Below, piece by piece: positions 4,851 to 38,882 of a stretch of DNA of 58,251 nucleotides. The notes below the pieces were generated by a model. The model was not told the origin of the DNA and ran no database searches. It was given only the letters and a program-made list of their open reading frames with translations. The stretch is from Pseudomonadota bacterium (GTDB lineage Bacteria; Pseudomonadota; Gammaproteobacteria; Burkholderiales; Casimicrobiaceae): the NCBI GenBank assembly GCA_018241765.1, contig JAFEDD010000003.1, positions 40,073 through 98,323 of the forward strand. Direction: 5' to 3'. The position numbers and the translations under genes are program-made. Numbering within the stretch: position 1 is the first letter of the stretch; every line of letters begins with the position of its first letter.

Positions 4851-4962
4851 CAACAACTTTTTGCTGAAAACCGCATCCACGACGGGCTTGGCGCTCGATA
4901 TTGCGACAAGTCGACTTTATGCCGAATCGCGCTGCAGGCCCATCATGGACGCCATTTCCGCA
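4851..4962. repeat. dispersed palindromic element, copy 1 (degraded)
   Basis: It begins 10 bases after the ruvC stop. The left arm is well preserved (CAACAACTTTTTGCTG, then CCGCATCCACGACGGGCTTG), as is the central palindrome AAGTCGACTTT near 4908-4918. The right arm (from about 4935) has drifted, with the core reading CAGGCCCATCATGGACGCC. The other copies are at 20646-20771, 34538-34660 and 38757-38882. Confidence 0.8.
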
Positions 4963-4985
4963 TTGAGGTGGCCACCGAAGAGGGG

Positions 4986-4997
4986 GTCGTTGACTCA
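4986..4997 (+). repeat. left member of a 12-bp direct repeat bordering the tandem array
   Basis: GTCGTTGACTCA here matches GTCGTTGATTCA at 5469-5480 in 11 of 12 bases. The two sit just outside, or at the edge of, the first and last units of the 93-bp array, as a target-site duplication or a recombination scar would. Chance cannot be excluded. Confidence 0.45.
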
Positions 4998-5002
4998 CAA
5001 AT

Positions 5003-5470
5003 GGTAGGCGACGGCTTGACGTCGCTTGCGTGCCGTCGATCATCGCCCACGGTCATCGAACGCAGCCAAGCGCGGTCAAGCCCGCGCCTACAAGTTGTAG
5101 GCGACGGCTTGACGTCGCTTTGGTGGGGTTGATCATCGTGGGCGGCCGTCGAACGCAGCCAAGCGCGGTCGAGCCCGCGCCTACCGGTAGTAGGCGACGG
5201 CTTGACGTCGCTTTGGTGGGGTTGGTCATCGCCACCGGTCGTCGAATGCAGCCAAGCGCGGTCAAGCCCGCGCCTACCGGTTGTAGGCGACGGCTTGACG
5301 TCGCTTTGGTGCGGTTGATCATCGTGGGCGGCCGTCGAACGCAGCCAAGCGCGGTCGAGCCCGCGCCTACCGGTTGTCGGCGACGGCTTGACGTCGCTTT
5401 GGTGCGGTTGATCATCGCCACCGGTCGTCGAATGCAGCCAAGCGCGGTCGAGCCCGCGCCTACCTGTCGT
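5003..5470. repeat. five-unit 93-bp tandem array of paired REP-like hairpins
   Basis: Units start at about 5003, 5096, 5189, 5282 and 5375; TAGGCG-type starts at 5005, 5098, 5191, 5284 and 5377 give an exact period of 93 bases. Each unit holds a forward motif GTAG followed by GCGACGGCTTGACGTCGC and, near its end, the reverse complement of GTAG followed by GCGCGGGCTTGACCGCGC. Both fold as 6-bp stems with the same GCTTGA loop. The stems differ by compensating changes, as in REP sequences. Units 2 and 4 share one inner spacer type and units 3 and 5 another, so the array probably grew by duplicating a 186-bp dimer. Because 93 is a multiple of three, both strands stay open through it by chance; those repetitive reading frames are not called as genes. 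Confidence 0.9.
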
Positions 5471-5480
5471 CGTTGATTCA

Positions 5481-5653
5481 TCACGACACGTCACTACGCG
5501 TTTCGGGGCTCTGCTATCCTGAGTCAACGATGCCCCTTCGGTGCACTTGCATTTTGAGTCACTGCGTTTGGCGCAAAGGTTGAATCGCGATTCGATGCCC
5601 GTGAACGCCGATGGCGTCGATGCGGGCAAACGGGTCACCAGGAAGGAGAGACG
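5481..5653 (+). promoter_or_regulatory. ruvA upstream region with TGAGTCA pair and -10-like box
   Basis: This stretch holds a -10-like TATCCT (5515-5520) and two TGAGTCA heptamers (5520-5526 and 5555-5561), 35 bases apart. A Shine-Dalgarno AAGGAGAG (5642-5649) precedes ruvA. No strong -35 box is apparent. It is the only plausible place for a ruvA promoter after the repeat block. Confidence 0.35.
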
Positions 5654-6238
5654 ATGATTGCACGACTCAGCGGCCAGCTCGTGGCCAAACACCCGCCGCA
5701 AATCGTCATCGATGTCGGCGGCGTCGGCTACGAGCTCGACGTGCCGATGAGCACGTTCTACGCGCTGCCGGCCACCGGCGAGGCGGTGCGGCTGCTCACG
5801 CATCAGGTCGTGCGTGAGGACGCGCACCTGCTCTTTGGCTTTGCGACCGAGGACGAGCGCAGCGCTTTCCGCCAGTTGATTCGCGTGACCGGCATCGGCC
5901 CCAAGGTGGCGCTCGCCGTGCTGTCGGGGCTCTCGGTCGAGGAGCTGAATCAGGCCATCGTGTTGCAGGATGTGAAGCGCCTGACGCGCGTGCCCGGCAT
6001 CGGCAACAAGACCGCCGAGCGGCTGCTGCTCGAACTCAAGGGCAAGGTGGTCGCCAGCGCCGCGCCAGGACAGCCCGCCGTGGCGAGCGCGAACCGTGGC
6101 GGCGACGTCGTCAACGCGCTGCTCGCGCTCGGCTACGGCGAGAAAGAGGCCGCTGCGGCGTGTCGCGAGCTGGCGCCGGAGCTGCCGCTCAACGACGCCA
6201 TCCGCCAGGCGCTCAGGCTCTTGTCGAAGACGAAGTAG
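5654..6238 (+). CDS. ruvA: RuvA, Holliday junction branch migration protein
   Basis: This 194-residue protein matches RuvA over its whole length: an N-terminal OB-fold (1-64), helix-hairpin-helix motifs around VTGIGPKVA (78-86) and [12 protein letters not shown] (113-124), and a C-terminal three-helix domain (about 145-194) that contacts RuvB. It binds four-way junctions and loads the RuvB motor. The start has a strong Shine-Dalgarno. The 3' end overlaps the convergent downstream gene by 26 bases, and ruvB does not follow. Confidence 0.96.
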
Positions 6239-7214
6239 GCGCCGCTGCTGCGGCGAAGCGGGCGGTCGCCTCGGCCAGATAGAACCACTCCTGATTCGCC
6301 TCGGCCATGGCGTTGGGAAACACGATGTAGCCGTCGGTCGGCGCCTCGACGACGCCGCCGTCGGCGCGCTCGCCGATCGTCTCGCCGGCGCGGACCGGAT
6401 CGAAGCTCTGCCACGGTCGAACGAAGCGATCCGCGCGGTCGAACTTGTCGATCACCGTCGTCAGCCGCAACCCCTCGACGTCGTGCGCCGGCAGTGGCGG
6501 CGGCGCGTCGACGAGCTCGAACAGCGCGAGCGTGTTGCGGATTGCGCGCCACGCCACCTCCGGCCCCGCCGGATCCTCGTGCTGCCCGCATTCGAGCGTC
6601 AGCGCCATGCCGCCGGTGCCGCGCATGTACTCGGTCGTGCCGACGCCGTACTTCGGGTCGAGATCGTGGCGACGGCCGGCCTGCGGCGCCTGTCGCTCGG
6701 CACGCGCGCGCCGCTCGGCGACGCCACGGGCATAGGTGTCGAGCCAGCCATCGACGGCGCGGCGCACACCGAGCCTGAGCGCCCAGTCACGTTCGTCGTC
6801 GCCGTGTACCGTTGGCTCCAGCGCCCCGGCGTTGCTCTCCGGCCCGACCATCACGAAGGCCTGGCCCGTCGCCTGGAACGAATGCAGATCGAGCAGCACC
6901 TCGTGCTCGGCCAAGAGCGGGCACAGCCAGTTGGCGATGTGATCCTCGAACTCGACCGGATTCGCCGTCGGAGCGAGATTGCGGTTCAGGTTGCGATCCC
7001 CGCTGCGGCGGCGCAGCGCGAAGGCCATGGGGTTGGTGATCGGCACGAAGGTCACGCGGCCACGACGCAGTTCAAGCTCCCCACGCTCGATCTCGCCGAT
7101 GATGCGACGAATGCCATGCGTGCCGGCGACCTCATTGCCGTGGACGGCGCCGGTGACGATCAGGCGGCGACCCGGCGCCACCGCAGAAAACGAAACGGAC
7201 TGGAAGGGAAGCAT
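6213..7214 (-). CDS. succinylglutamate desuccinylase/aspartoacylase family zinc hydrolase
   Basis: A 333-residue carboxypeptidase-like (M14-fold) enzyme. Zinc ligands are recognised in [10 protein letters not shown] (H25, E28) and LLDLHSF (H111), the substrate-binding arginine-asparagine pair in DRNLNRNL (73-80), and a probable catalytic glutamate in LTLECGQ. These enzymes hydrolyse N-acyl amino acids such as N-succinylglutamate or N-acetylaspartate; the substrate is not evident. No other arginine-succinyltransferase-pathway gene is nearby, so astE is not assigned. The ATG at 7214 is chosen because the family domain begins within the first 20 residues. Confidence 0.82.
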
Positions 7215-7420
7215 GCGGGAGAGGCGCACCGCGCGCGGTGCCGACGAAACGCTGACGGAGACAGATGTTAGAGCCTGTCGCCACCGTGACGTCGGCGCGG
7301 TTGCTGCGCCCGCGCCGTCGACGCGGCCATACGTTGTCGGGTAAACCCGCAGTACGCCTGCGACAGCGGCGAGACCGTGTAGCATCGGGTTCGCTGAAAG
7401 AAGAGGAGGCTGGCAGCGAC

Positions 7421-8200
7421 ATGAGCGGTACTTCCGAGACCATACTCGAAACGCGCAACCTGGGGAAGGAATTCAAGGGTTTCGCGGCCGTGAGTGACGT
7501 CAACCTGAGCGTGCGGCGCGGCGCGATCCACGCTCTGATCGGCCCCAACGGAGCGGGAAAGACCACCTGCTTCAACCTGCTCACGAAGTTTCTCGTGCCG
7601 ACCACGGGCAGCATCACCTTCAACGGCCGAGACATCACCCGCGAGCAGCCGGCGCAGATCGCGCGCCAGGGCATCATCCGGTCGTTCCAGATCTCCGCCG
7701 TGTTCCCGCACCTCACCGTGCTCGAAAACGTCCGCGTCGGCCTGCAACGCCGCCTCGGCACCGCCTTTCACTTCTGGAAGAGCGAACGCACGCTCTCCGC
7801 GCTCGACGAACGCGCGATGGCGCTCCTGGCCGAGGTCGGGCTCACCGACGTGGCGCGCGAAGTCACGGCCAACCTGCCCTACGGCCGCAAGCGGGCGCTC
7901 GAAATCGCCACCACGCTGGCCATGGAGCCCGAGCTGATGCTGCTCGACGAGCCAACGCAGGGCATGGGCCACGAAGACGTGCACCGCGTCACCGAACTGA
8001 TCCGCAAGGTTGCCGTCGGCCGCACCGTGCTGATGGTCGAACACAACATGAACGTCGTCGCCAGCATCGCCGACCGCATCACCGTCTTGCAGCGCGGCAG
8101 CGTGCTCGCCGAGGGCAGCTACGACGACGTCTCGAAGAACCCGGAAGTGATGCAGGCCTACATGGGCACCGTCGACGGCGAACTCGAAGGAGCGCACTGA
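7421..8200 (+). CDS. livG: branched-chain amino acid ABC transporter ATPase LivG
   Basis: A 259-residue ABC ATPase with Walker A GPNGAGKTT (41-49), the LivG-like ISAVFPHLTVLENVRVGLQ segment, a signature region LPYGRKRALEIA and Walker B LMLLDEPTQGM. The C-terminal sequence AEGSYDDVSKNPEVMQAYMG is typical of LivG. It energises uptake of branched-chain or related amino acids across the inner membrane. The ATG at 7421 follows the Shine-Dalgarno AAGAGGAGG. The ATPase genes come first in this operon, followed by livF, the binding protein, livH and livM. Confidence 0.94.
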   Translation: MSGTSETILETRNLGKEFKGFAAVSDVNLSVRRGAIHALIGPNGAGKTTCFNLLTKFLVPTTGSITFNGRDITREQPAQIARQGIIRSFQISAVFPHLTVLENVRVGLQRRLGTAFHFWKSERTLSALDERAMALLAEVGLTDVAREVTANLPYGRKRALEIATTLAMEPELMLLDEPTQGMGHEDVHRVTELIRKVAVGRTVLMVEHNMNVVASIADRITVLQRGSVLAEGSYDDVSKNPEVMQAYMGTVDGELEGAH

Positions 8201-8928
8201 TGGCGGCCACCCCCGTCGCGGGCACACCCGCATTGAGCATCCGCGATCTGCACGCCTGGTATGGCGAATCGCATGTGCTGCACGGCGTCGAGCTCGAAGT
8301 GCAGAAGGGCGAGGTCGTCACCCTTCTGGGGCGCAACGGGGCCGGTCGCACCTCCACGCTGCGCGCGATTCTCGGACTCACGGGCGAGCGCAAGGGCTCG
8401 ATTCGACTGAGCGGCGTCGAGACGATCCACCTCGCCACCCATCGCATCGCGCACCTCGGCGTCGGCTACTGCCCCGAAGAGCGCGGCATCTTCGCCAGTC
8501 TCTCGTGCGAGGAAAACCTGATGCTGCCACCGGCCATCCAGGGCGGCGACGGCGGCATGAGCATCGACGAAATCTACGCGATGTTCCCCAATCTGAAGGA
8601 GCGGCGCCATAGTCAAGGCACGCGGCTGTCTGGCGGTGAGCAGCAGATGCTCGCCGTGGCGCGCATCCTGCGCACCGGCGCCAACCTGCTGCTGCTCGAC
8701 GAAATCTCGGAAGGGCTCGCGCCGGTCATCGTGCACGCGCTCGCGCGCATGATCCGCACGCTGAAGGCGAAGGGCTACACCGTCGTCATGGTCGAGCAGA
8801 ATTTCCGCTTCGCCGCACCGCTGGCCGATCGCTTCTATGTCATGGAACATGGCCGCATCGTCGAACACTTCGCCGCCGGCGAATTGGAGGCGCGCATGCC
8901 GGTGCTGAACCAATTGCTCGGCGTATAG
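8200..8928 (+). CDS. livF: branched-chain amino acid ABC transporter ATPase LivF, Walker A Lys to Arg
   Basis: A 242-residue ABC ATPase. It has the LivF-type GYCPEERGIFASLSCEENL block, signature LSGGEQQML and Walker B LLLLDEISEGL. Walker A reads GRNGAGRT (44-51), so the usual lysine is Arg50 (codon 8347-8349). The partner LivG has an intact lysine, so the ATPase pair may be functionally asymmetric. The start overlaps the livG stop by one base (TGATG), indicating translational coupling. Confidence 0.93.
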   Translation: MAATPVAGTPALSIRDLHAWYGESHVLHGVELEVQKGEVVTLLGRNGAGRTSTLRAILGLTGERKGSIRLSGVETIHLATHRIAHLGVGYCPEERGIFASLSCEENLMLPPAIQGGDGGMSIDEIYAMFPNLKERRHSQGTRLSGGEQQMLAVARILRTGANLLLLDEISEGLAPVIVHALARMIRTLKAKGYTVVMVEQNFRFAAPLADRFYVMEHGRIVEHFAAGELEARMPVLNQLLGV

Positions 8929-9022
8929 TTGCCGCACCGGGCGCGCAAGCGCCCGCTTCCAGATCTTGATGTCCCCGATCGATTACCGGAATCGAACCCA
9001 AACCCGAAGGAGAGAAGACCCC

Positions 9023-10216
9023 ATGAAATTGACTCTGAAACCGCTGGCCATCGCGCTCGGCGTTGCGGCAATCGCCGTCAGCGCGCAAGCTCAGGAAAAA
9101 GTGAAGATCGGCTTCGTCACCGACATGTCGAGTCTGTACGCCGACGTCGAAGGCAAGCTTGGCGCTGCCGCCATCCAGATGGCGATCGATGACTTCGGTG
9201 GCAAGGCGCTCGGCCAGCCCATCGAACTGCTGACCGCGGACCACCAGAACAAGGCCGACATCGCGGCGTCGAAGGCGCGCGAATGGATCGACACCGCCGG
9301 CGTCACGATGGTCTTCGGCGGCACCAACTCGAGCACAGCGCTCGCCACCGCCAAGGTCGCGTTGGAGAAGAAGCGCGTCTACATCAACAACGGCGCGGCG
9401 TCCTCGGCGCTCACCAACGAACAGTGCAGCCCCTACACGGTTCACTATGCCTACGACACCGTGGCACTCGCCAAGGGCACCGGCGGCGCGGTCGTCGACA
9501 CCGGCGGCAAGACCTGGTTCTTCCTGACGGCTGACTACGCCTTCGGTCACGCGCTCGAGGCCGACACCAGCCGCATCGTCAAGGAGAAGGGCGGCACCGT
9601 GGTCGGCGCCGTGCGGCACCCGCTGAACGCCTCCGACTTCTCGTCGTTCCTGCTGCAGGCGCAGAACTCCAAGGCGCAGATCCTCGGCCTCGCCAACGCC
9701 GGTGGCGACACCATCAACTCGATCAAGGCCGCGAAGGAATTCGGCATCGACAAGACGATGAAGACCGCCGCGCTGCTGATCTTCCTGAGCGACATCCACA
9801 GCCTGACACTGAAAAACGCCGAGGGCCTGCTGCACACGACCAGCTGGTATTGGGACCTGAACGATGAGAGCCGCAAATGGGCCAACCGCTTCTACGAGAA
9901 GCACAAGCGGATGCCGACCGACATCCAGGCCGCGGATTACTCGGCGACGATGGCCTACCTGAAGGCCGTGCAGGCGGCGAAGACGACCGATGCCGACAAG
10001 GTCATGGAGCAGCTTCGCAAGACGCCGGTCAACGACTTCTACGCCAAGGGCACGCTGCGTCCGGATGGCCGCTTCGTGCACGACATGTACCTCGCACAGG
10101 TCAAGACCCCGGCGGAGTCGAAGAAGGCTTGGGACTACCTGAAGATCGTGAAGACGATTCCGGGCGACCAGGTGTTCACCACCAAGGCCGAATCGAAGTG
10201 CGCGCTCTGGAAGTAG
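9023..10216 (+). CDS. livK: periplasmic branched-chain amino acid-type substrate-binding protein
   Basis: This 397-residue type I periplasmic binding protein has a clear signal peptide, MKLTLKPLAIALGVAAIAVS, with likely cleavage after AQA before QEKVKIG. The ligand-binding Leu/Ile/Val-type fold follows (VKIGFVTDMSSLYADVEGKLG near the start of the mature protein). Members of this family bind amino acids, amides or aromatic acids, so the ligand is not certain. A strong Shine-Dalgarno AAGGAGAGAAG precedes the ATG. A long hairpin separates it from livH. Confidence 0.92.
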   Translation: MKLTLKPLAIALGVAAIAVSAQAQEKVKIGFVTDMSSLYADVEGKLGAAAIQMAIDDFGGKALGQPIELLTADHQNKADIAASKAREWIDTAGVTMVFGGTNSSTALATAKVALEKKRVYINNGAASSALTNEQCSPYTVHYAYDTVALAKGTGGAVVDTGGKTWFFLTADYAFGHALEADTSRIVKEKGGTVVGAVRHPLNASDFSSFLLQAQNSKAQILGLANAGGDTINSIKAAKEFGIDKTMKTAALLIFLSDIHSLTLKNAEGLLHTTSWYWDLNDESRKWANRFYEKHKRMPTDIQAADYSATMAYLKAVQAAKTTDADKVMEQLRKTPVNDFYAKGTLRPDGRFVHDMYLAQVKTPAESKKAWDYLKIVKTIPGDQVFTTKAESKCALWK

Positions 10217-10232
10217 CGCACCGCTGATTCAC

Positions 10233-10285
10233 GTCGCGCCTGCGTGGACGAGCGGCTTCGGCCGCTCTTCCGCGCAGCGCGCGAC
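10233..10285 (+). promoter_or_regulatory. long stem-loop between the binding-protein gene and livH
   Basis: The RNA would fold into a composite hairpin. The outer stem is GTCGCGC (10233-10239) with GCGCGAC (10279-10285), extended by CTGCG (10240-10244) with CGCAG (10273-10277). The inner stem is GAGCGGC (10250-10256) with GCCGCTC (10261-10267), capped by a UUCG-type tetraloop. There is no T run, so it is more likely an mRNA-stabilising or processing structure that sets the binding protein above the permeases than a terminator. Confidence 0.65.
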
Positions 10286-10372
10286 GTCGCCGTCGTCGAC
10301 TGCCTGTCGACCGCACCTTCCGCCCGGCATCTGCGACCGGTGCGGCGTCCGTAACCTTCCTGTCGGCATGCC

Positions 10373-11257
10373 ATGGAAATTTTCGGCAGACCTCTCCCCG
10401 CGATGCTCAGCCAACTGTTGCTCGGGCTGGTCAATGGGTCGTTCTACGCCATCCTGAGTCTCGGTCTCGCGGTCATCTTCGGCCTGCTGAACGTCATCAA
10501 CTTCGCCCATGGCGCCCTCTTCATGCTCGGTGCGGTGCTCGCATGGATGGGCATGGAGTATCTCGGCGTCAACTATTGGTTGATGCTGCTCTTGTCGCCG
10601 CTCATCGTCGGCGCGCTCGGCATCCTCATCGAGCGGGTGTTTCTGCGCCACATCTACAAGCTCGATCACCTCTACGGCCTCTTGCTGACGCTCGGCATCA
10701 CGCTCGTCATCGAGGGCGTGCTGCGTTCGTTCTACGGCGTGTCGGGGCTGCCCTACAGCCCGCCTGACGCGCTGGCCGGCGCCACCAACCTCGGCTTCAT
10801 GGTGCTGCCCAACTACCGCGCGTGGGTCGTCGTCGCCTCGCTCGCCGTCTGTTTTGCCACGTGGTACGTCATCGAACGCACCAAGCTGGGCGCCTACCTG
10901 CGTGCCGGCACCGAAAACCCGCGCCTGGTGGAGGCCTTTGGCGTCAATGTCCCGCTGATGGTCACGCTCACCTACGGCTTCGGCGTCGCGCTCGCGGCGT
11001 TCGCCGGCGTGCTGGCGGCGCCCGTCATCCAGGTGTCGCCGCTGATGGGGCAGCACCTCATCATCGTCGTCTTCGCCGTCGTCGTCATCGGCGGCATGGG
11101 TTCGATCATGGGTTCGATCCTCACCGGGCTCGGACTCGGCGTCATCGAAGGGTTCACCAAGGTCTTCTACCCCGAGGCTTCCTCCACCGTCGTCTTCGTG
11201 ATCATGGCGATCGTCCTCGTCGTGCGTCCGGCCGGCCTCTTCGGCAAAGAGAAATAG
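10373..11257 (+). CDS. livH: branched-chain amino acid ABC transporter permease LivH
   Basis: A 294-residue hydrophobic protein with eight or so membrane segments and the LivH-like opening GLVNGSFYAILSLGLAVIFG, followed by NVINFAHGALFMLGA. The C-terminal GGMGSIMGSILTGLGLGVIEG segment contains the conserved loop that couples to the ATPase. It pairs with LivM to form the membrane channel. livM follows after 10 bases. Confidence 0.95.
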   Translation: MEIFGRPLPAMLSQLLLGLVNGSFYAILSLGLAVIFGLLNVINFAHGALFMLGAVLAWMGMEYLGVNYWLMLLLSPLIVGALGILIERVFLRHIYKLDHLYGLLLTLGITLVIEGVLRSFYGVSGLPYSPPDALAGATNLGFMVLPNYRAWVVVASLAVCFATWYVIERTKLGAYLRAGTENPRLVEAFGVNVPLMVTLTYGFGVALAAFAGVLAAPVIQVSPLMGQHLIIVVFAVVVIGGMGSIMGSILTGLGLGVIEGFTKVFYPEASSTVVFVIMAIVLVVRPAGLFGKEK

Positions 11258-11267
11258 GACGCGCGCC

Positions 11268-12248
11268 ATGAACAAGACCCAGCTCGGCTACCTGCTGCTT
11301 CTGCTCGCCCTCGTCGCAGCGCCGTTCGTCGGGGCCTACCCGATCCTCGTCATCAAACTGCTCTGCTTCGCGCTGTTCGCCTCCGCGTTCAACCTGCTGC
11401 TTGGTTTCACCGGGCTCTTGTCGTTCGGCCACGCGGCGTTCTTCGGCGGCGCGGCGTACGCTGCCGGCCACGCGATGAAGCATTGGGGACTGACACCCGA
11501 ACTCGGGTTGCTGTTCGGTGCGCTGGCCGGTGGCGCCCTCGGTTTTCTGTTTGGACTGCTCGCGATCCGGCGGCAGGGCATCTACTTCGCGATGATCACG
11601 CTGGCGCTCGCGCAGATGGTCTTCTTCTTCAGCCTGCAGGCGCCGTTCACCGGTGGCGAGGACGGGCTGCAGGGCGTGCCGCGCGGCAAGCTCTTCGGCG
11701 TGCTCGACCTGAGCAACGACCTGACGATGTACTACGCCGGCCTAGCCATCATTGCGGCCGCCTTCCTGCTCATCGTGCGCACCGTCCATTCGCCCTTCGG
11801 CCAGGTGCTGAAAGCCATCAAGGAAAACGAACCGCGTGCCATTTCGCTGGGCTACGACACCGCCCGCTTCAAGCTGCTGGCGTTCGTGATTTCCGCCGCC
11901 ATCACCGGGCTCGCCGGCGCACTGAAGACCGAAGTGCTCGGCTTCGCCACACTCACCGATGTGCACTGGCTGATGTCGGGCAGCGTGATCCTGATGACGC
12001 TGGTCGGTGGCCTCGGCACCCTGTCGGGGCCGCTGGTCGGCGCTGCGATCGTCGTCGCCATCGAGAACAAGCTTGGCGAACTCGGCAACTGGATTGCCTC
12101 GGTCACCGGCATCGACTGGTTCAATTCGCTCGGCGAATCGGTGTCGCTCGTCACCGGGCTCATCTTCATCGTCTGCGTCATGGCGTTCCGCCGCGGCATC
12201 ATGGGCGAAATCATCGCCTTCATCGATCGTCGACGCGGCAAGGCCTGA
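11268..12248 (+). CDS. livM: branched-chain amino acid ABC transporter permease LivM
   Basis: A 326-residue polytopic permease with the LivM hallmarks NLLLGFTGLLSFGHAAFFG, RRQGIYFAMITLALAQM and the coupling-loop region AIKENEPRAISLGYD. It ends with a basic tail. It is the last gene of the liv operon and converges with rlmI 26 bases downstream, with no obvious terminator between them. Confidence 0.95.
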   Translation: MNKTQLGYLLLLLALVAAPFVGAYPILVIKLLCFALFASAFNLLLGFTGLLSFGHAAFFGGAAYAAGHAMKHWGLTPELGLLFGALAGGALGFLFGLLAIRRQGIYFAMITLALAQMVFFFSLQAPFTGGEDGLQGVPRGKLFGVLDLSNDLTMYYAGLAIIAAAFLLIVRTVHSPFGQVLKAIKENEPRAISLGYDTARFKLLAFVISAAITGLAGALKTEVLGFATLTDVHWLMSGSVILMTLVGGLGTLSGPLVGAAIVVAIENKLGELGNWIASVTGIDWFNSLGESVSLVTGLIFIVCVMAFRRGIMGEIIAFIDRRRGKA

Positions 12249-12273
12249 ACGGGGCGGCGCACCGACCCGGCCG

Positions 12274-13491
12274 CTACCAGACGCGGCAGAACACCGCCTT
12301 CAGATAGCGGCTCTCATTGACGTGGGCGAGCCACGGGTGATCGGGGCCGGCCCCGCGCACTTCGAGCACCTGCACTTCGCGCTTGGCGTAATACGCAGCG
12401 CGGCGGAGCATGTCGAGAAAGGGCTCTTCGCCGACGACGCCCGTACACGAGCAGGTCAGAAAGAGGCCACCGCGACGCACGGCGCCGAGCGCGAGGCGGT
12501 TCATGTCGAGGTACTTCTTGAGCGCGTCGATGACCTCGTCGCGTGAGCGCGTGAGTTTGGCCGGATCGAGCACCACCGCATCCCACGTCTTGCCGGCCAA
12601 CAGCGCTTCGCGCAGCCACGGAAAGATGTCGGCCTGCGTGACCTTGCCGTGCACGTCGTTCAGGCGCAGGTTGCGCGTCGCGTAGGCAACCGCCTCCTCG
12701 TCGAGATCGACGGCCGTCACGTCGGTGGCGCCGTTGCGCCCGGAGACGACCGCAAACCCCCCCGAGTTGCAGCACAGATCGAGCATGCGCGTGCTGCCGG
12801 TGGCGGCGACGAGTTCGCCCCAGTGCCGCCGATTGTCCCGCTGATCGCAGAAGAATCCGGTCTTGTGCTTGCCGCCGATCGGCACCTGAAAGCGCACACC
12901 GTGTTCGGTCACGATCACCGGACGCGGCGTCCTGGCGGGCGTCGCCTCGAACCCCTCCTGCCGCTCGGCGTTGTCGTCGCCGATCGCATGAATGCGGGCG
13001 CCGGGGAAATGTTCGAGCAGCGCCGCAAACACCCAGTCCTGGATGCGCCACATGCCGGCTGCGTGAAATACCACCACCAGCACGTCCTGGAAGCGATCGA
13101 CGATCAACCCCGACAGGCCGTCGCCTTCGGCATGCACGACGCGGTAGGTGTCGCCATGGGTGTCGAGGCGATAGATCGCATGGCGAAGATGCACGGCTTC
13201 GGCGATGCGCCGCGCGATGAACGCGGCGTCGATCGGCTCGTCTTCGCGTTCGCTCAACAGGCGCACCGCCATCGGCGCCTGAGCGTTGAAGAAGCCGCGA
13301 CCGATGAAGCCGCCGTCGACGCCGCGCACTTCGACCAGGCTGCCGGGCGCCAGCCGAGCCGACGGGCGCTCGACCATCTTCTGAAAGATCAACGGGTGGA
13401 CGTAGGTGCGTTCGCTCTTCAGGCGAACGATCGGCAACGCGCCGCCGCGAGGGGCCGCGCGCCGAGAAGGGTCGGCATTCATGGTGAGCAA
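12274..13491 (-). CDS. rlmI: 23S rRNA (cytosine-C5) methyltransferase RlmI-like
   Basis: A class I SAM-dependent methyltransferase of about 405 residues with an N-terminal PUA domain (IVRLKSERTYVHPLIF onward), a central EEHD-type segment and a Rossmann domain containing LDLCCNSGGFAVVSG. The catalytic motif region reads LTCSCTG, as in RlmI, which makes m5C1962 in 23S rRNA. The first ATG (13491) lies inside the preceding gene by 13 bases; the ATG three codons on (13482) is an alternative. It is the last gene of a three-gene minus-strand operon with the PRPP-synthetase-like and phosphorylase genes. Confidence 0.9.
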   Translation of the reverse strand: MLTMNADPSRRAAPRGGALPIVRLKSERTYVHPLIFQKMVERPSARLAPGSLVEVRGVDGGFIGRGFFNAQAPMAVRLLSEREDEPIDAAFIARRIAEAVHLRHAIYRLDTHGDTYRVVHAEGDGLSGLIVDRFQDVLVVVFHAAGMWRIQDWVFAALLEHFPGARIHAIGDDNAERQEGFEATPARTPRPVIVTEHGVRFQVPIGGKHKTGFFCDQRDNRRHWGELVAATGSTRMLDLCCNSGGFAVVSGRNGATDVTAVDLDEEAVAYATRNLRLNDVHGKVTQADIFPWLREALLAGKTWDAVVLDPAKLTRSRDEVIDALKKYLDMNRLALGAVRRGGLFLTCSCTGVVGEEPFLDMLRRAAYYAKREVQVLEVRGAGPDHPWLAHVNESRYLKAVFCRVW

Positions 13492-20645: not shown

Positions 20646-20771
20646 CAACAACTTTTTGCTGAAATCCGCATCCACAACGGGCTTGCGGCTCGATTCGACG
20701 TAAAGCCGACTTTCCGGCTTTTCCGGCGCCAAGCCCGTTGTGGATGCGGCTTTCGCAAAAAAGCCGTATCG
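20646..20771. repeat. dispersed palindromic element, copy 2 (well preserved)
   Basis: It fills the gap between two convergent genes, yheS and the hydroxyacyl-CoA dehydrogenase. The left core CCGCATCCACAACGGGCTTG is an exact reverse complement of the right core CAAGCCCGTTGTGGATGCGG. The outer ends (CAACAACTTTTT and AAAAAAGCCGTATCG) also pair roughly. The centre has AAAGCCGACTTT, one base off the palindrome of copies 1 and 4. The RNA would make a stem of about 40 bp, which may serve as a two-way terminator here. Confidence 0.88.
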
Positions 20772-28625: not shown

Positions 28626-28660
28626 ACGCTCCAATTCGTGCCTCTGAAGGATCTGACCGA

Positions 28661-29461: not shown

Positions 29462-29510
29462 CCGCGCACCGTCCCCGTCACTCGTCACTCGACCATAGGG
29501 AGAACATGCA

Positions 29511-30641: not shown

Positions 30642-30717
30642 TCGCTCGGCATGTGGCGGCAGGCTACGTCCGGCCGCCCGCGTTCATGCTGGTTGACACC
30701 GACGCACCGATTGCGCG

Positions 30718-31887
30718 ATGAACCCTCCGACCGCCACCCATAGCGACGCCACGGCGCCCGAGAAGCAGGCGCGCAGCAAATACAGTTGCGTTGCCTGCGG
30801 TGGCGAGGCGGTGTGGAACCCGGCCAAGCAAAAGCTCGTCTGCGCGTTCTGCGGCACCGAGATGCCGTTGCCGCCCGCCAGCGAGGCGATGCCGGGGCTG
30901 CAATCGACCGACATCGTCGAGCACGATCTCGTCGCCGCGCTGCGTGACTTGAGTGGCGAAGCGCGCGGGTGGGCGCGCACGACGCGCATGATCAAGTGCC
31001 GGCAGTGCCAGGCGATCAGCGTGTTCGATGCGACCAAGCAGGCGAAGGCCTGCGAGTTCTGCGGCGCATCCGCCATCGTCGATTACGACGAGACGGGCGA
31101 CGTCATCCGACCCGAGGCGATCCTGCCGATTCAGGTCAGCGAATCGCAGGCGCGCGATCGTTTGCGTGCGTGGTATGGCAAGCTCTGGTGGGCGCCCAAC
31201 GCGCTGAAGAAAAAGGCGATGGCCGACCGCGTGAGCGGGCTCTATCTGCCGTATTGGACGTTCGACGCGATGGTCGACGCGCGCTGGCAGGCCGAGGCGG
31301 GCTACTACTACTACGAAACCGAGACGTATTTCGAGAACGGAGAGCAGCGCAGCCGCCAGGTGCAGCGCGTGCGCTGGGAATACGCCTCGGGCAGTCTCAA
31401 CCACTTCTTCGATGACACGCTGGTGTGTGGGTCGCGCGGTGTGCGCGAGGCGCTGCTGCGCAACATCGAGCCTTTCCCTACCACCGAGAAGGGCACGGGG
31501 GCGCTGAAACCCTATGACCCGGCGTACGTCAGTGGCTGGACGGTGGAGCGCTATCAGATCGACCTGATCGCAGCGGCCAAGCTGAGCCGCGAGCGCATGC
31601 TCGGCGAAACGCGTGGCTTGTGTTCGCAACAGGTGCCGGGCGACACGCAGCGCAACTTGCAGGTCGACGCCAATTTCTCGCGGCAAACGTTCAAGCACAT
31701 CCTCGCGCCGGTGTGGCTTTTGACCTACGTCTACGCCAACAAGGACTATCAGGTCGTCATGAACGCCGTGACCGGCAAGCTCGATGGCGAATATCCGAAG
31801 AGCTGGGTGAAGATCACGCTCGCCGTGATCGTCGTGCTGATCGTGCTGTTCGTCGTGTTCGCCGGTGGTGGTGGCCGTCACCGCTGA
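30718..31887 (+). CDS. twin zinc-ribbon membrane protein
   Basis: A 389-residue protein with two N-terminal zinc ribbons: C24/C27 with C42/C45, and C94/C97 with C112/C115. A middle domain is rich in aromatic residues (LYLPYWTFDAMVDARWQAEA and YYYYETETYFENGEQ). A single C-terminal membrane helix, ITLAVIVVLIVLFVVF, is followed by GGGGRHR. The protein probably faces the cytoplasm with its zinc ribbons and sits beside the SPFH protein encoded just upstream (76 bases). No catalytic motif was recognised. Confidence 0.8.
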   Translation: MNPPTATHSDATAPEKQARSKYSCVACGGEAVWNPAKQKLVCAFCGTEMPLPPASEAMPGLQSTDIVEHDLVAALRDLSGEARGWARTTRMIKCRQCQAISVFDATKQAKACEFCGASAIVDYDETGDVIRPEAILPIQVSESQARDRLRAWYGKLWWAPNALKKKAMADRVSGLYLPYWTFDAMVDARWQAEAGYYYYETETYFENGEQRSRQVQRVRWEYASGSLNHFFDDTLVCGSRGVREALLRNIEPFPTTEKGTGALKPYDPAYVSGWTVERYQIDLIAAAKLSRERMLGETRGLCSQQVPGDTQRNLQVDANFSRQTFKHILAPVWLLTYVYANKDYQVVMNAVTGKLDGEYPKSWVKITLAVIVVLIVLFVVFAGGGGRHR

Positions 31888-32668
31888 GCCACGGCTGCCC
31901 GCCGTCGCGGGCGTTGCGCTGGCCGCGATTCCACCGGCCCTGGCCGAGCATCCGGCGTTCGCGCCGTACGCTCCCCTGTCGGCGGATGGGGCCGCCGCCG
32001 ACGCCGGCATGGCTTCGTTGATGCCGCGTCTCGTGGCGCCACCCACGCGCGCCCTCGGCGCACTGGAATTCGAGCGACGCCTGGTTGACGCGAACGAGCT
32101 CATCGTGCGTCCCAACGATCTGCATGACACCTTGAACGCGCTCGTTTGGCGCCGCTTTCCACGCATGAAGCGCGCGATCAGCGAACTGCACGTCGCGCTC
32201 GGTGCGGCCGCCACGGCCAACGCGCGTCCGCGCCGACGCGATGTGCTGACGCTCTTCGATGAGGCGGGCGCGCTGTTGCTGAGTGAGCGCACCGATTTGC
32301 CCGCGCTGCATGCGGCGCACGCGTGGCGAGCGCTGTTCGTGGATCGGCGCGCGGCGTTCGCACGCGATGTGCGGGTGATTCTCTTCGGTCACGGCGCGCT
32401 CGAGCAGCTCGCGGGCAACGCGCATCGCGGGTTGACCGTGAAGGCGCTGTGGGTGGCGTATCCGGGCACGATCGGGTTGCCCGCGCTCGACGCGGCGCTC
32501 GCCGCGCAGATCACGGCGGGCACGCTGCTCGCTGCCGATGAGCCGCGCCTGCCGTTGCCGCTCCTTGGTGTGCCGGGCTGGTTTGCCGAAAACGAGGATC
32601 CACGCTGTTACGACGATGCGAGCGTGTTCCGGCCGAGGCGCACGGAGCGCGGCGCGGCTTCGTCGTAG
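31865..32668 (+). CDS. DUF3025 family protein
   Basis: A protein of 267 residues with the DUF3025 hallmark VRPNDLHDTLNALVWRRFPRMK and a later LFGHGALEQLAGN. The function is unknown. The ATG at 31865 overlaps the end of the preceding gene by 23 bases; GTG 31871 is another possible start. Convergent with ptsI, which ends 39 bases further on. Confidence 0.8.
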   Translation: MVVAVTAEPRLPAVAGVALAAIPPALAEHPAFAPYAPLSADGAAADAGMASLMPRLVAPPTRALGALEFERRLVDANELIVRPNDLHDTLNALVWRRFPRMKRAISELHVALGAAATANARPRRRDVLTLFDEAGALLLSERTDLPALHAAHAWRALFVDRRAAFARDVRVILFGHGALEQLAGNAHRGLTVKALWVAYPGTIGLPALDAALAAQITAGTLLAADEPRLPLPLLGVPGWFAENEDPRCYDDASVFRPRRTERGAASS

Positions 32669-32707
32669 CGACTGCGGGAGCTCGGCGTCGCGCCGGCGCG
32701 CTGTGGC

Positions 32708-34477
<1,770 letters not shown>

Positions 34478-34537
34478 GGGGCAATGCTAGCAACTGCCCG
34501 TCGCACCCCGTTGCAACGGGGAAGATGACACAATGCC

Positions 34538-34660
34538 CGATACAACTTTTTTCGCTAAGGCGCATCCACAACGGGCTTGCGGCGCCAAATGTGCAAAAGT
34601 CGATATTGGGCAAAACCAAGTCGCAAGCCCGTTGTGAGCGCCATTTGCACGAAAAGCCAT
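34538..34660. repeat. dispersed palindromic element, copy 3, in the ptsI-yajC divergent region
   Basis: Left end CGATACAACTTTTTTCGC, left core GCGCATCCACAACGGGCTTG, centre AAAGTCGATATT and right core CAAGCCCGTTGTGAGCGCC. The right outer end (GAAAAGCC) is truncated. Unlike copies 2 and 4, this one sits between divergent genes, where it would lie in the 5' regions of both and could affect expression. Confidence 0.85.
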
Positions 34661-34716
34661 TGACATCGCTGCGGCAGGTGCGGTCGTCGGCAAGGCGGCC
34701 GACACGCGGCGCCGAC

Positions 34717-34722
34717 TAAAAT
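34717..34722 (+). promoter_or_regulatory. possible -10 box of the yajC-sec operon
   Basis: TAAAAT, 38 bases before the yajC start, at the same kind of site as boxes ahead of yebC and ffh. The -35 region at 34694-34699 (GGCGGC) is not a match. Confidence 0.3.
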
Positions 34723-34759
34723 GAAAGGTTGACTCCATGATTTTCCGAGGGTTTCTTCC

Positions 34760-35083
34760 ATGATTGGCACGGCATACGCGCAGGCGGCCGGCGGCGCGGC
34801 GGGCGGCAGTGAACTGCTGTCGTTCCTGCCGATGATCGGCATTTTCGTCATCTTCTATTTCCTTCTGATCCGGCCGCAACAAAAGCGCGCCAAGGAGCAA
34901 AAGGCGATGCTCGAGGCGCTGCAGAAGGGGGATGAGGTGGTCACCGCCGGAGGCGTCGTTGGTCGGGTTACCAAGCTCGACGACAACTACGTGACGCTCG
35001 CCGTCGGCGGCGGCACCGAAATCGGCTTCCAGCGCAACGCGGTCACGGCGTTGCTGCCCAAGGGCTCGCTCAAACAACTCTGA
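34760..35083 (+). CDS. yajC: YajC, preprotein translocase auxiliary subunit
   Basis: A 107-residue protein with one N-terminal membrane helix (LLSFLPMIGIFVIFYFLLIR) followed by PQQKRAKEQKAMLEALQKGD and the GGVVGRVTKL strand region of YajC. It associates with SecD and SecF in the Sec holotranslocon, and its gene precedes secD as usual. The tgt and queA genes that commonly lie upstream are not present. Confidence 0.95.
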   Translation: MIGTAYAQAAGGAAGGSELLSFLPMIGIFVIFYFLLIRPQQKRAKEQKAMLEALQKGDEVVTAGGVVGRVTKLDDNYVTLAVGGGTEIGFQRNAVTALLPKGSLKQL

Positions 35084-35159
35084 GCCACGCCGACCGTCGC
35101 GACTTGCGTTGCGACGGCACAGCCCAACCTCCGTTCAATCTCCCCGGCAGGCTCAGCCC

Positions 35160-37082
35160 ATGAACCGCTATCCCCTGTGGAAATACCTGATCATGATCGT
35201 CGCGGTCGTGATCGGTCTTTTCTATACGCTGCCCAACATCTTCCCGCAGGTCCCCGCGGTGCAGGTGTCGACCAACAAGACGGCGGTTCGCCTCGACGCC
35301 GCACTGCTCGATCGGGTCGAGAAGACGCTGAAGAGCGCTGGCATCCCGACGACCACGGCCGGGCTCGATCCTGACAACGGCGTGCACATCCGCTTCGTGA
35401 AGGGCGACACCGAGAACCAGGCGAAGGCCAAGGAGGTGCTGATCAAGGAGCTCAACGGAGGCGTCGCCGACGGCACCGGCAACTACATCGTCGCGCTGAC
35501 CAGCGAATCGACCACGCCGCGCTGGATGCAGGAGCTGAACGCCAAACCGATGGCGCTGGGGCTCGACCTCCGCGGCGGCGTGCACTTCCTGATGCAAGTC
35601 GACATGAAGGGCGCGCTCGATCGCGCCGCCGACCGCAACGCGGCCGACATCCGCACGCTGCTGCGCGAGAAGAAAATTGCCTATGGCGGCGTGGACAAGG
35701 CGGGCGCCATCATCAACGTCAAATTCAGCGATGCCGCCGAGCGGCAGAAGGCCGAGCTCGCCATCAGCGACTCCAACAAGGATCTGCTGCTGAAGGAGGA
35801 CGGCGCGGGGCAGGATCTGCGCCTGCTCGTCACGCTGAAGGATGAGGCGAAGAAAAAGCTCGCCGACTCCGCGATCGAACAGAACCAGAAGGTGCTGGGC
35901 AACCGCATCAACGCGCTCGGACTCACCGAGCCGATCATCCAGCGTCAGGGCGCCGATCGCATCGTGATCCAGGTGCCGGGCGCCTCCGACCCGGCGCGCC
36001 TGAAGGACGTGATCGGCCGCACCGGCACGCTGGAGCTGCGCATGGTCGATGCCGACGGCCAGAAGAACACGGCCGCGCTGCAGGCCGCACAGGCCGGCAA
36101 CGTGCCCTTCGGCACCGAACTGATGAACGATCGCGACGGCGGCCAAATTCTCGTCAAGAAGCAGTACGTGATCACCGGCGAGCGCATCAACGGCGCCGAG
36201 CCCGCGTTCGATGGCCAGAGCAACCAGCCGATCGTGCGCGTGACCACCGACGGGCAGGGTGCACGCGTGCTGCGCGACGTCACCTCGCAGAACATCGGCA
36301 ACCGCATGGCGATCGTGCTGATCGAAAAGGGCAAACCGGAAGTCATCACGGCGCCGGTCATCCAGGGTGAACTCGGCAGCAACTTCCAGATCAGCGGCCG
36401 CATGACGACGCGCGAGACGAGCGACATCGCGCTCCTGATCCGCTCCGGCTCGATCGCCGCGCCAATGGAGATCATCGAAGAGCGCACCGTCGGCCCGAGC
36501 CTGGGTGCCGAGAACATCGATCGCGGCTTCCACTCCGTGCTCTGGGGCTACCTCGTGCTGGCGACCTTCATCTGCATCTACTACATGGTGATGGGGCTCA
36601 TCTCGACGCTCGCGCTGAGCGTGAACCTGCTCCTGCTGATCGCCGTGCTCTCGATGCTGCAGGCCACGCTGACGTTGCCGGGCATTGCCGCCATCGCGCT
36701 GACGCTCGGCATGGCGATCGACGCCAACGTGCTGATCAACGAACGCATCCGCGAAGAACTGCGCGCCGGCGCCAAGGCGCAAGAGGCGATCTCGGCGGGC
36801 TTCGAGCACGCCTGGCGCACGATTCTCGACTCCAACATCACCACGCTGATCGCCGGCCTCGCGCTCTTCGTGTTCGGCACCGGGCCGGTCAAGGGCTTTG
36901 CCGTCGTGCACTGCCTGGGCATCCTCACTTCGATGTTCTCCGCCGTGTTCTTCTCGCGCGGTGTGGTCAACCTGGTCTACGGCAGCCGCAAGAAACTCGA
37001 GAAGGTGTCGATCGGCACCGTCTGGCGACCGCCATCGGTCAGCACCAACGCCGCCGTCACGGCGAGCGTGGACGCGAAATAA
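35160..37082 (+). CDS. secD: SecD, protein translocase subunit
   Basis: A 640-residue membrane protein with a first helix in MNRYPLWKYLIMIVAVVIGL, a large periplasmic region containing the ALGLDLRGGVHFLMQVD motif, and five further helices near the C-terminus with GMAIDANVLINERIREEL, the conserved part of the proton channel. With SecF it uses proton flow to pull exported proteins across the inner membrane. ATG 35160 gives the family N-terminus. Confidence 0.96.
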   Translation: MNRYPLWKYLIMIVAVVIGLFYTLPNIFPQVPAVQVSTNKTAVRLDAALLDRVEKTLKSAGIPTTTAGLDPDNGVHIRFVKGDTENQAKAKEVLIKELNGGVADGTGNYIVALTSESTTPRWMQELNAKPMALGLDLRGGVHFLMQVDMKGALDRAADRNAADIRTLLREKKIAYGGVDKAGAIINVKFSDAAERQKAELAISDSNKDLLLKEDGAGQDLRLLVTLKDEAKKKLADSAIEQNQKVLGNRINALGLTEPIIQRQGADRIVIQVPGASDPARLKDVIGRTGTLELRMVDADGQKNTAALQAAQAGNVPFGTELMNDRDGGQILVKKQYVITGERINGAEPAFDGQSNQPIVRVTTDGQGARVLRDVTSQNIGNRMAIVLIEKGKPEVITAPVIQGELGSNFQISGRMTTRETSDIALLIRSGSIAAPMEIIEERTVGPSLGAENIDRGFHSVLWGYLVLATFICIYYMVMGLISTLALSVNLLLLIAVLSMLQATLTLPGIAAIALTLGMAIDANVLINERIREELRAGAKAQEAISAGFEHAWRTILDSNITTLIAGLALFVFGTGPVKGFAVVHCLGILTSMFSAVFFSRGVVNLVYGSRKKLEKVSIGTVWRPPSVSTNAAVTASVDAK

Positions 37083-37108
37083 CCGTCGGGCCCCGGCAGG
37101 AGAACACC

Positions 37109-38095
37109 ATGGAATTTTTCCGCTTCTCGCGCGACATCCCGTTCATGAAGTACGCCGTGTACTTCAACGTGATTTCGCTGCTCACTTTCCTCATCGCCGT
37201 CGGCGCGCTCGCCACCAAAGGGCTGCACTACGGCATTGACTTCACCGGCGGCACCGTGGCCGAGCTGCGCTACGCCCAGCCCGCCGACATGACGCAGGCG
37301 CGCGCCGCCATCGAATCGCTGAAAACCGGCGAAGCGGTGGTGCAGCACTTCGGCACGCCGCAGGATGTATTGGTGCGGCTGCCGCTGGTGCCCGGCGTCA
37401 CCAACGCGCAGATGAGCGACAACCTGTTCAAGGCGGTGTGCGGCACGCGCACCCTCGCCGACAGCAAGAACGCCTGCGGCGAGGGCGCCGAGCGCATCGA
37501 ACTCAAGCGCGTGGAATTCGTCGGCCCGCAGGTCGGTCGCGAGCTGTTTGAAAACGGCGCGCTCGCGCTGCTCTTGGTGGTGGCGGGCATCATGATCTAC
37601 CTCGCCGTGCGCTTCGAATGGCGCTTCGCGGTGTCGGCGATCATCGCCAACCTGCACGACATCATCATCATTCTCGGGCTGTTCGCCATCTTCGGGTGGG
37701 AGTTCAATCTGCCGGTGCTCGCTGGCGTGCTCGCCATTCTGGGCTATTCGGTCAACGAGTCGGTCGTCATCGCCGACCGGGTGCGCGAGAACTTCCACAA
37801 GATGCGCAAGGCGAGCGTCGATCACGTCATCGACAACGCGATCACCAGCACCATCAGCCGCACCATCATCACCCACGGCTCCACGCAGATCATGGTGCTC
37901 TCGATGCTCTTCTTCGGTGGCGAGACGCTGCACTACTTCGCGCTCGCGCTGACCATCGGCATCCTGTTCGGCATCTACTCCTCCGTGCTGGTCATGGCGC
38001 CGCTCGTGCGCTGGCTCGGCACCTCGCGCGAGAACCTCGTGCACGCCACCGAGAAGCCGAAGGACGCGCTGGAAGCCGAGAAGATCCTGCCGTGA
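37109..38095 (+). CDS. secF: SecF, protein translocase subunit
   Basis: A 328-residue partner of SecD. It shows the first helix (YAVYFNVISLLTFLIAVGAL), GIDFTGGTVAELRY in the periplasmic domain and the C-terminal block GYSVNESVVIADRVRENF. It follows secD after 26 bases. Its stop codon overlaps the GTG start of a dedA-type gene. Confidence 0.96.
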   Translation: MEFFRFSRDIPFMKYAVYFNVISLLTFLIAVGALATKGLHYGIDFTGGTVAELRYAQPADMTQARAAIESLKTGEAVVQHFGTPQDVLVRLPLVPGVTNAQMSDNLFKAVCGTRTLADSKNACGEGAERIELKRVEFVGPQVGRELFENGALALLLVVAGIMIYLAVRFEWRFAVSAIIANLHDIIIILGLFAIFGWEFNLPVLAGVLAILGYSVNESVVIADRVRENFHKMRKASVDHVIDNAITSTISRTIITHGSTQIMVLSMLFFGGETLHYFALALTIGILFGIYSSVLVMAPLVRWLGTSRENLVHATEKPKDALEAEKILP

Positions 38096-38742
38096 TCGCC
38101 GAGATCATCGGGTTCTTCACCTCGCTCGACGCCCATCTCACCACGCTGGCGCAGAGCTCGCCCGGGCTCTTCTTCGGCGTGCTCGCCGCCATCATCTTCG
38201 TCGAGGCGGGCGTCGTGCTGTGGCCGTTCCTGCCCGGCGACTCGATGCTGTTCGTGGCCGGCGCCATCGTGGCGCTGGCCGGGCTCCATGTGCACGCGCT
38301 GGTCGCGCTGCTGATCGCCGCGGCCATTCTCGGCAACCTCGTCAACTACGCCGCCGGTCGCTACGTTGGCGAGCGCGCCTTCGCCAACCCGGACTCGCGC
38401 ATCTTCCGCCCGATCTACCTGCAACGCACGCGCGAGTTCTATGAGCGCTACGGGCCGATGTCGATCATCCTTGGCCGTTTCGTGCCGATCGTGCGTACCT
38501 TCGTGCCGTTTCTGGCCGGCGTCGCGCCGATGCGCTATGCGACGTTCCTCCTCAACAACGTCATCGGCGCCGTGCTCTGGATCGGCTCGCTCGTCTACGC
38601 GGGCCATGCGTTTGGCAACGTGCCGTGGGTGAAGCAAAACCTCACGCTGATCATCGTCGCCATCCTGATCGTCTCGGTGCTTCCGATCGCGATCAAGCTG
38701 GCGCAGGAATACCGCCGTTCACGACGCGCGTCGCTGCCGTAG
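38092..38742 (+). CDS. DedA-family membrane protein
   Basis: A 216-residue SNARE-associated (DedA) family protein. The family motif E-A-G...F-L-P-G-D-S is seen in FVEAGVVLWPFLPGDSMLFV, and the second in GRFVPIVRTFVPFLAGVAPM, where the conserved arginines support transport of lipid carriers (undecaprenyl phosphate or phospholipid flipping) in other members. The GTG start at 38092 overlaps the secF stop as GTGA, so translation is coupled to the sec operon. It is followed by palindromic element copy 4. Confidence 0.9.
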   Translation: MIAEIIGFFTSLDAHLTTLAQSSPGLFFGVLAAIIFVEAGVVLWPFLPGDSMLFVAGAIVALAGLHVHALVALLIAAAILGNLVNYAAGRYVGERAFANPDSRIFRPIYLQRTREFYERYGPMSIILGRFVPIVRTFVPFLAGVAPMRYATFLLNNVIGAVLWIGSLVYAGHAFGNVPWVKQNLTLIIVAILIVSVLPIAIKLAQEYRRSRRASLP

Positions 38743-38756
38743 GCACGAAATTTTCA

Positions 38757-38882
38757 ATACAACTTTCGGCCGGAAGCCGCATCCATAGCGGGCTTGCAGC
38801 AACAAATACCCGAAAGTCGACTTTTCATGATATTGGCCGCCAAGCCCGTTATGGATGCGGCTTTCAGAGAAAAGTTGTATCG
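38757..38882. repeat. dispersed palindromic element, copy 4 (best terminal inverted repeats)
   Basis: Both outer ends are intact: ATACAACTTT at the left and AAAGTTGTAT at the right are perfect inverted repeats. The left core is CCGCATCCATAGCGGGCTTG and the right core CAAGCCCGTTATGGATGCGG, with one base unpaired, and the centre is AAAGTCGACTTT, a perfect palindrome. It lies between the convergent dedA and Na/Pi cotransporter genes. Confidence 0.9.

Follow-up and report, generated by a model that had tools for sequence, protein, structure and literature searches.

The window analyzed here is a 58,251-nt stretch of DNA (GCA_018241765.1, contig JAFEDD010000003.1, forward-strand positions 40,073-98,323) from a betaproteobacterial genome labelled G000, and it contains four copies of a dispersed palindromic element, 124 bp long and with no strand assigned. 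Copy 1 (4851..4974, dyad 4912/4913) lies between the tandem genes ruvC (4293..4841, + strand) and ruvA (5654..6238, + strand), the former of which was the anchor for comparison with relatives. Copy 2 (20646..20769, dyad 20707/20708) is flanked by convergent genes, one encoding an ABC-F-type ATPase and the other a 3-hydroxyacyl-CoA dehydrogenase. Copy 3 (34540..34663, dyad 34601/34602) is flanked by a divergent pair that encodes a ptsI-like PEP-utilising enzyme and YajC, and copy 4 (38757..38880, dyad 38818/38819) by a second convergent pair, which encodes a VTT-domain protein and a Na/Pi cotransporter. An earlier reading of this DNA, the original prediction, had claimed four such copies in these gene contexts (two convergent, one divergent, and one after ruvC, which is the tandem one before ruvA). 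All four were present in a common 124-bp frame, from which the earlier bounds, though in the right places, differed by 0-12 bp. Only copy 4 had the complete outer ends ATACAACTTT/AAAGTTGTAT and the complete centre AAAGTCGACTTT that the earlier reading gave for the element, and the other three copies deviated from them. In copy 4, which had the highest score of the four, the left arm CCGCATCCATAGCGGGCTTG is at 38777..38796 (+ strand), the central palindrome AAAGTCGACTTT at 38813..38824 (no strand), and the inverted right arm at 38841..38860 (- strand). There were seven matches to the arm motif in the window at ≤3 of 18 mismatches, compared with 0.10 expected, and the arm starts were 62 bp apart in the three copies in which both arms were matched.

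The G000 genome (3.24 Mb in 76 contigs, 90% complete) contained 216 arm matches at ≤2 mismatches and none to the reversed control pattern, so the element forms a dispersed family that extends beyond the window, as had been proposed. Elements were identified with an iterated weight matrix in a sample of 1.205 Mb (37% of the genome, window included) made up of long stretches of seven contigs, all known to bear matches. With a threshold of +12 in the last round and a best shuffled score of -34, 74 elements were found, which extrapolates to about 200 per genome at a mean interval of 16 kb. The matrices used in this study were built from the same copies that they score, they miss decayed copies, and two genomes were sampled in bulk. 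The four copies in the window scored 120-143 (the median of the 74 was 123), and none was unusually decayed, contrary to the range from near perfect to decayed that had been described. Gene calls were from a home-made caller, and the assemblies were metagenome-assembled genomes (MAGs) except for the single-contig G005. Fifty-five of the 74 elements overlapped no predicted gene, 15 overlapped one partially, and 4 were inside a gene; with a less strict gene set used earlier, the counts were 54, 16, and 4. The orientation of the genes flanking 70 elements (40 tandem, 17 divergent, 13 convergent) showed no bias relative to the expectation from intergenic length (39.8, 18.3, and 11.9; P 0.91).

Analysis of 67 of the 74 copies (score >60, no N, full context) showed that the element is two-fold symmetric, with two 62-bp halves around the dyad. 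From the outside in, the consensus half is AACAACTTTT, AAA, CCGCATCCA[T/C][A/G]ACGGGCTTG, a run of four A/T, and AAAGTCGACTTT at the dyad, followed by the mirror image. A/T blocks are found near positions ±4.5, 13.5, 24.5, 32, 44.5, and 53.5, with G/C blocks in between. The A/T period over the half was 9.76 bp in the 67 G000 copies and 9.72 bp in 99 of the 103 copies from a second species of the genus, G005. For positions 16-62 it was 9.70 and 9.92 bp (bootstrap 9.60-9.78 and 9.86-10.00), and for positions 20-66 it was 9.36 and 9.80 bp, the sinusoid accounting for just 14-30% of the A/T profile. Positions ±13 were approximately 100% A/T in G000 and A and T were interchangeable there, a free choice that is the mark of shape readout. 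Conservation was strongly uneven along the element, and 68 of the 74 copies had no length change between the halves.

The outer part of the half had two spellings in G000, ATGCGGnTTT or ACGYCATTT, the latter one base shorter in alignment. The two half types, A and B, paired at random (AA 26, AB 29, BB 12, compared with 24.5, 32.0, and 10.5 expected). Both spellings were visible in paired alignments of G000 and G005, the counts being from G000 only, and they may predate the split between these species. No within-copy pairing covariation between the halves was found at variable positions relative to halves drawn from different copies, either in the 67 G000 copies (z 0.4) or in the 99 G005 copies (z 0.7). 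An earlier covariation test on fitted orientations had given 0.593 compared with 0.576 (+2.2 standard deviations (SD), strongest at the outer ends), a signal which the fitting of orientation may have produced; in G000 the outer zone alone was 1.9 SD up. Most of the linkage between columns spanned no more than 20 bp and involved neighbouring columns and the A/B half types; -13/+13 (z 11.7) was an exception.

G005 is represented by one complete 4.47-Mb chromosome, of which 1.2 Mb (2.9-4.1 Mb) was analyzed with a matrix started from G005 loci only (threshold +10, best shuffled score -8.4). There were 103 elements in this region, or about 380 per genome by extrapolation. Their arms are spelled differently (roughly -TT--AA--GGGCT) from those of G000, with which they have in common the ruler and the centre AAAGTCGACTTT. 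Most of these elements were intergenic: 87 of the 103 elements overlapped no predicted gene, 15 overlapped one partially, and 1 was inside, compared with 6.5% of random places overlapping none. The elements were evenly spaced, with a mean of 11.7 kb and a coefficient of variation (CV) of 0.54. When places were drawn at random 2000 times, with one element per intergenic gap, the mean CV was 0.95 and the lowest 0.717. The smallest spacing was 3160 bp, compared with 1520 bp for the highest in the random placements, and none was under 3 kb where 20.9 were expected.

The positions of the elements were inherited. The G000 and G005 samples shared 322 reciprocal best hits (median 75% identity), which gave 199 conserved neighbouring gene pairs. 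Thirteen of the 74 G000 elements fell in such pairs, and in all 13 a G005 element was found at the same place, while only 6 of the 78 long-gap pairs without a G000 element had one in G005 (Fisher test for 13/13 versus 6/78, 1.4e-11). There were no elements in either species in the 108 short-gap pairs. In other words, the 199 pairs included no G000-only sites and six G005-only sites. The 13 orthologous element pairs were more alike than mismatched pairs at columns variable in both species (0.42 versus 0.35, permutation P 0.001). Copies 1 and 4 of the window have a G005 element at the same place.

The spelling of the arms differed between species. At ≤1 mismatch the G000 arm pattern was absent in the 16 congeners, and there was any match at all in only 4 of 149 genomes, G000 included. 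A sequence profile from 61 copies, R1, found the element in 11 of the 17 genomes of the genus (G000 included), with 19 to at least 150 matches when strands were counted apart, and under stricter filters it found none in 47 genomes of the family's six other genera. The conclusion that six congeners lack the element was rejected, being wrong at least for G007, which has a dialect with GGGCGA arms: R1 finds nothing there, but the genome contains 43 exact copies of TGGGCGA-N{40,52}-TCGCCCA (reversed control 0). The span from GGGC to GCCC was 58 bp, as in G000, in 36 of these, one base shorter in 4, and one base longer in 3. Ten G007 copies taken with their flanks had TCGA within an A/T-rich centre, runs of A/T at ±13, and CAAC at the outer ends, as in G000. 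The same pattern was found 3 times in G002 (control 0) and once in G011 (control 1), and not in G010, G014, or G016.

A pattern of geometry alone (GGGC, four A/T, TCGA, four A/T, and GCCC at fixed spacing) had 49 matches in G000, 70 in G005, 72 in G006, 69 in G012, 33 in G007, and 4 in G001, with controls of 0. There was one match each in G004, G010, G011, and G015, and none in 54 of the 64 genomes of the family; among 369 genomes of the class it was found in G000 only. A pattern centred on GTCGAC, searched in 399 genomes of the order, was found 59 times in G000, 103 times in G005, and 5 times in G009, with single matches in 12 other genomes compared with single control matches in 10. The exact two-arm pattern had no match in a search of genome contigs, and no description of this palindrome family was found among the top-listed titles of open-licence papers.

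The region of copy 1 was compared in other relatives, the nearest named ones by RuvC being betaproteobacterial MAGs. R1 identified an element beside ruvC in JAPUER010000073.1 (L130, 42 bits) and JANXNI010000055.1 (L131, 26 bits), and none there in the next relatives, L132 and L134. L133 has beside ruvC a copy of the G007 dialect that is identical to G007:C12:361426-361484 and is imperfect, with a 57-bp span and the centre ACGA. The gap between ruvC and ruvA is 812 bp in G000, compared with 142 bp in G005, and includes an imperfect inverted repeat just downstream of copy 1 (4997-5098, 49-nt arms, 76% complementary, 4-nt loop).

The geometry of the element, its phasing, the interchange of A and T, the free combination of halves, the absence of pairing constraint, the spaced conserved blocks, and the differences in spelling suggest a wrapped two-fold site. 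That the elements are regularly spaced and inherited in position suggests that they help to organise the chromosome. The elements are, we think with somewhat more confidence than doubt, docking sites for a two-fold symmetric DNA-wrapping complex that organises the chromosome. Such a protein complex would wrap approximately 124 bp at each element, with the two 62-bp half-sites facing each other across the TCGA dyad. It would make base-specific contacts at GGGC and the adjoining arm bases, and would read shape at the A/T runs spaced 9.7-9.9 bp; a period shorter than 10.5 bp would be consistent with left-handed wrapping. From about 200 (G000) to about 380 (G005) intergenic sites, on average 16 and 12 kb apart, would have been kept in place through speciation, and the arm spelling would track the changing recognition surface of the complex, which would give rise to the species dialects. 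The most likely role of the complex would be in nucleoid domains, supercoiling, or segregation. A bolder version, which is offered tentatively, is that the elements are a bacterial counterpart of the positioned nucleosome, in which a dedicated sequence-specific complex wraps 124 bp at intervals of about 12-16 kb, forming an inherited, dialect-bearing ruler that marks domain boundaries or segregation points. If a wrapping complex is indeed responsible, these bacteria would have large, spaced, and inherited sites for DNA wrapping, and a single genus would include at least three dialects that differ in spelling across the genome. It would then be possible to test how domain boundaries are placed in bacteria, how one recogniser co-evolves with hundreds of sites, and whether bacteria have sequence-positioned wrapping, and the set of dialects would offer a natural experiment in which co-variation could reveal the protein.

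Several observations weigh against a wrapping complex. The family was seen in one genus only, which would be strange if it served a basic function of the chromosome; genomes elsewhere could have a dialect that differs from those searched for. The geometry pattern was missing even in the R1-positive genomes G003, G008, G009, and G013, whose spelling must depart from it. The summed information, about 130 bits in G000 (oriented, uncorrected) and 72 in G005 (symmetrised), is far in excess of what specific binding alone needs. Spacing in G000 followed the same trend as in G005 more weakly (CV 0.76 versus a mean of 0.95 in random placements, P 0.017), and 5 of the 66 spacings in G000 were under 3 kb compared with 8.6 expected. 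In G005 the neighbouring genes were tandem at 61 elements, divergent at 19, and convergent at 23, compared with 59.7, 29.9, and 13.4 expected (P 0.004), and this preference for convergent and avoidance of divergent genes, a bias absent in G000, hints at a tie to transcription. The 67 G000 copies had a small but clear excess of similarity, the identity of nearest neighbours being 0.571 compared with 0.529 in column shuffles (null SD 0.004), with a spread of 0.089 compared with 0.063. One-sided and possibly mobile relatives of the element also exist, approximately 10 solo half-sites in the G000 sample (8 to 11 depending on the threshold).

No binding protein was found. The number of HU/IHF paralogues was unremarkable, with 2-4 matches in each of 17 congeners and no pattern. 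GyrA had no fixed differences between seven R1-positive and five R1-negative genomes, a comparison covering 12 of the 17 genomes, four cut-off genes and G012, read in a wrong frame, being left out. Because the R1-negative genomes are at least in part another dialect, the comparisons of GyrA and HU between genomes with and without R1 matches lost most of their force. No candidate binder was seen among the genes between close element pairs, which were inspected by eye only.

The most probable of the alternatives, though an unlikely one, is that the elements serve as strong DNA gyrase sites built into the chromosome, comparable to the strong gyrase site (SGS) of Mu and BIME-2 and spaced to spread supercoiling. 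Cleavage would then be centred on TCGA, with the arms wrapped around the C-terminal domains of GyrA. In E. coli the gyrase motif is described as spanning 130 bp, with the cleavage site as its centre of symmetry and GC recurring at a period of 10.75 bp on either side (PMC6379681). The size, symmetry, phasing, intergenic place, and spacing of about 12 kb of the elements fit this explanation, and the preference for convergent gene ends in G005 would suit gyrase. However, the flank period of 9.7-9.9 bp differs from the reported 10.75 bp (PMC6379681), with the qualification that the sinusoid explains 14-30% and other ranges gave 9.36-9.80 bp. Species-specific arms that are read by base would not be expected of a degenerate motif, and no GyrA residue separates the seven R1-positive from the five R1-negative genomes, a weak test because this split is at least partly one of dialect.

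Still less probable is a relic of a miniature inverted-repeat transposable element (MITE) or REPIN that spread before the genus diversified, its copies later being fixed and homogenised by gene conversion. The high copy number, inverted repeats, and intergenic place would all be accounted for, as would the small excess of similarity among copies and the one-sided copies, which are 68-89% alike over aligned stretches. Two further copies, L009 and L010 (G000:C21, 1968 bp apart and outside the 67-copy sample), have a near-identical central stretch and different flanks, and look like local gene conversion or duplication. Contrary to a relic, there was no near-identical pair among the 67 copies of the 124-bp form, the best reaching 0.66 at variable columns where shuffles reach 0.67. 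No match was found to the exact pattern in viral contigs, or to copy 4 in plasmids or phages at E 0.001. The best result of a scan for target duplications was a 3-mer at offset 72 in 6 of the 67 copies, 4.5 times the expectation, over many sizes and offsets with no formal correction; old duplications would have decayed. Mobility of a MITE or REPIN followed by drift, which the original prediction had suggested, is set aside as the main explanation in view of the steady length, the even spacing in G005, the 13 of 13 shared places, the similarity of orthologous copies, and the uneven conservation. Gene conversion or mobility on a smaller scale keeps some room in the small excess of similarity, in L009 and L010, and in a minority of recently spread one-sided copies.

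Eight of the 11 one-sided copies inspected have a site matching the IHF consensus 57-58 bp beyond the dyad, at the point expected for the end of the second half, followed by shared sequence (G000:C2:3083, 5497, and 131150; C22:54078, 202013, and 202760; C44:19769; C6:79258). Two others (C2:120830 and 122588) form a separate pair. The one-sided copies were 68-90% alike over aligned stretches, which indicates that they spread more recently. No copy of the IHF type was found in the 1.2 Mb of G005, where the laxest threshold gave four solo hits without an IHF site, and scans of the one-sided-copy region for tandem repeats and against Rfam gave nothing. A DNA-bending protein replacing the second half would, speculatively, be in keeping with a complex that bends or wraps DNA, and it is equally likely that these copies are of mobile origin. 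Some of them hold a short basic reading frame (58 aa at C2:5580-5756), and a second palindromic repeat around CCTCGATTCCACTTCGTTGCATCGAGG is found in both orientations near them in G000:C22 and C2.

It is improbable that the elements are a DNA uptake signal, maintained through biased uptake and recombination if the genus is naturally competent, with dialects that follow the receptor as in the DNA uptake sequences (DUS) of the Neisseriaceae. We know of no uptake signal with a 124-bp two-fold ruler and helical phasing. The inherited positions would fit this explanation, and the drive could favour one site per fragment and so lead to even spacing. Species spelling round a common core does resemble the DUS dialects, but DUS are described as 10-12-mers in about 1,500-3,800 copies (PMC3630211). 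A transcribed hairpin (a bidirectional terminator, mRNA stabiliser, or small RNA) is very improbable: the arms are complementary and the gene orientations in G005 are biased, but there is no compensatory pairing (the outer zone of G000 alone being 1.9 SD up), no orientation bias in G000, and no Rfam match in the window other than a tRNA, and many copies are between divergent genes (17 of 70 in G000, 19 of 103 in G005) or, as with copy 1, between ruvC and ruvA.

The design of two arms round a third palindrome, which was not recognised when the copies were first described, fits none of the families tested. The gyrase motif, including Mu SGS and BIME-2, is similar in being approximately 130 bp long and symmetric, with alternation of A/T and G/C in both flanks, and differs in being degenerate, with no dialects in the description, a period of 10.75 rather than 9.7-9.9 bp, and nothing there like the fixed GGGC and TCGA (PMC6379681). 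The REP, BIME, and REPIN sequences with their RAYT transposases are extragenic and palindromic and often have more than 100 copies, but they are described as 20-40 bp long, mostly with GTAG/CGTC tags, and often clustered, whereas the elements are evenly spaced 124-bp singletons without hairpin covariation (PMC3733652; PMC2817692). In the elements the possible AAGCC/GGCTT stem of the arm is unconserved (0.48 at column -42 and 0.51 at column -41), and the consensus has no conspicuous GTAG/CGTC tag. At about 127 bp the ERIC/IRU sequences are of nearly equal length, intergenic, and imperfectly palindromic. To our knowledge they are not known to be evenly spaced, to have dialects, or to have a phased half-site ruler. 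They are described as small mobile sequences (PMC2759123). The DUS of the Neisseriaceae also differ in spelling across whole genomes between species, round a constant core, but they are 10-12 bp long with thousands of copies and, as described, no dyad ruler (PMC3630211). Species dialects of a common core were found here in G000, G005, and G007. The matS, parS, SlmA, and Noc sites are palindromic, have several to many copies, and serve chromosome biology; at about 12-16 bp and regionally clustered, they are not 124-bp units like the element. In nucleosome positioning DNA, A/T steps occur close to half-integer turns counted from the dyad and G/C is in antiphase to them, and the contact extends over approximately 120 bp. 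No histone was found, none having been searched for, and the elements differ from nucleosome DNA in carrying base-specific arms as well.

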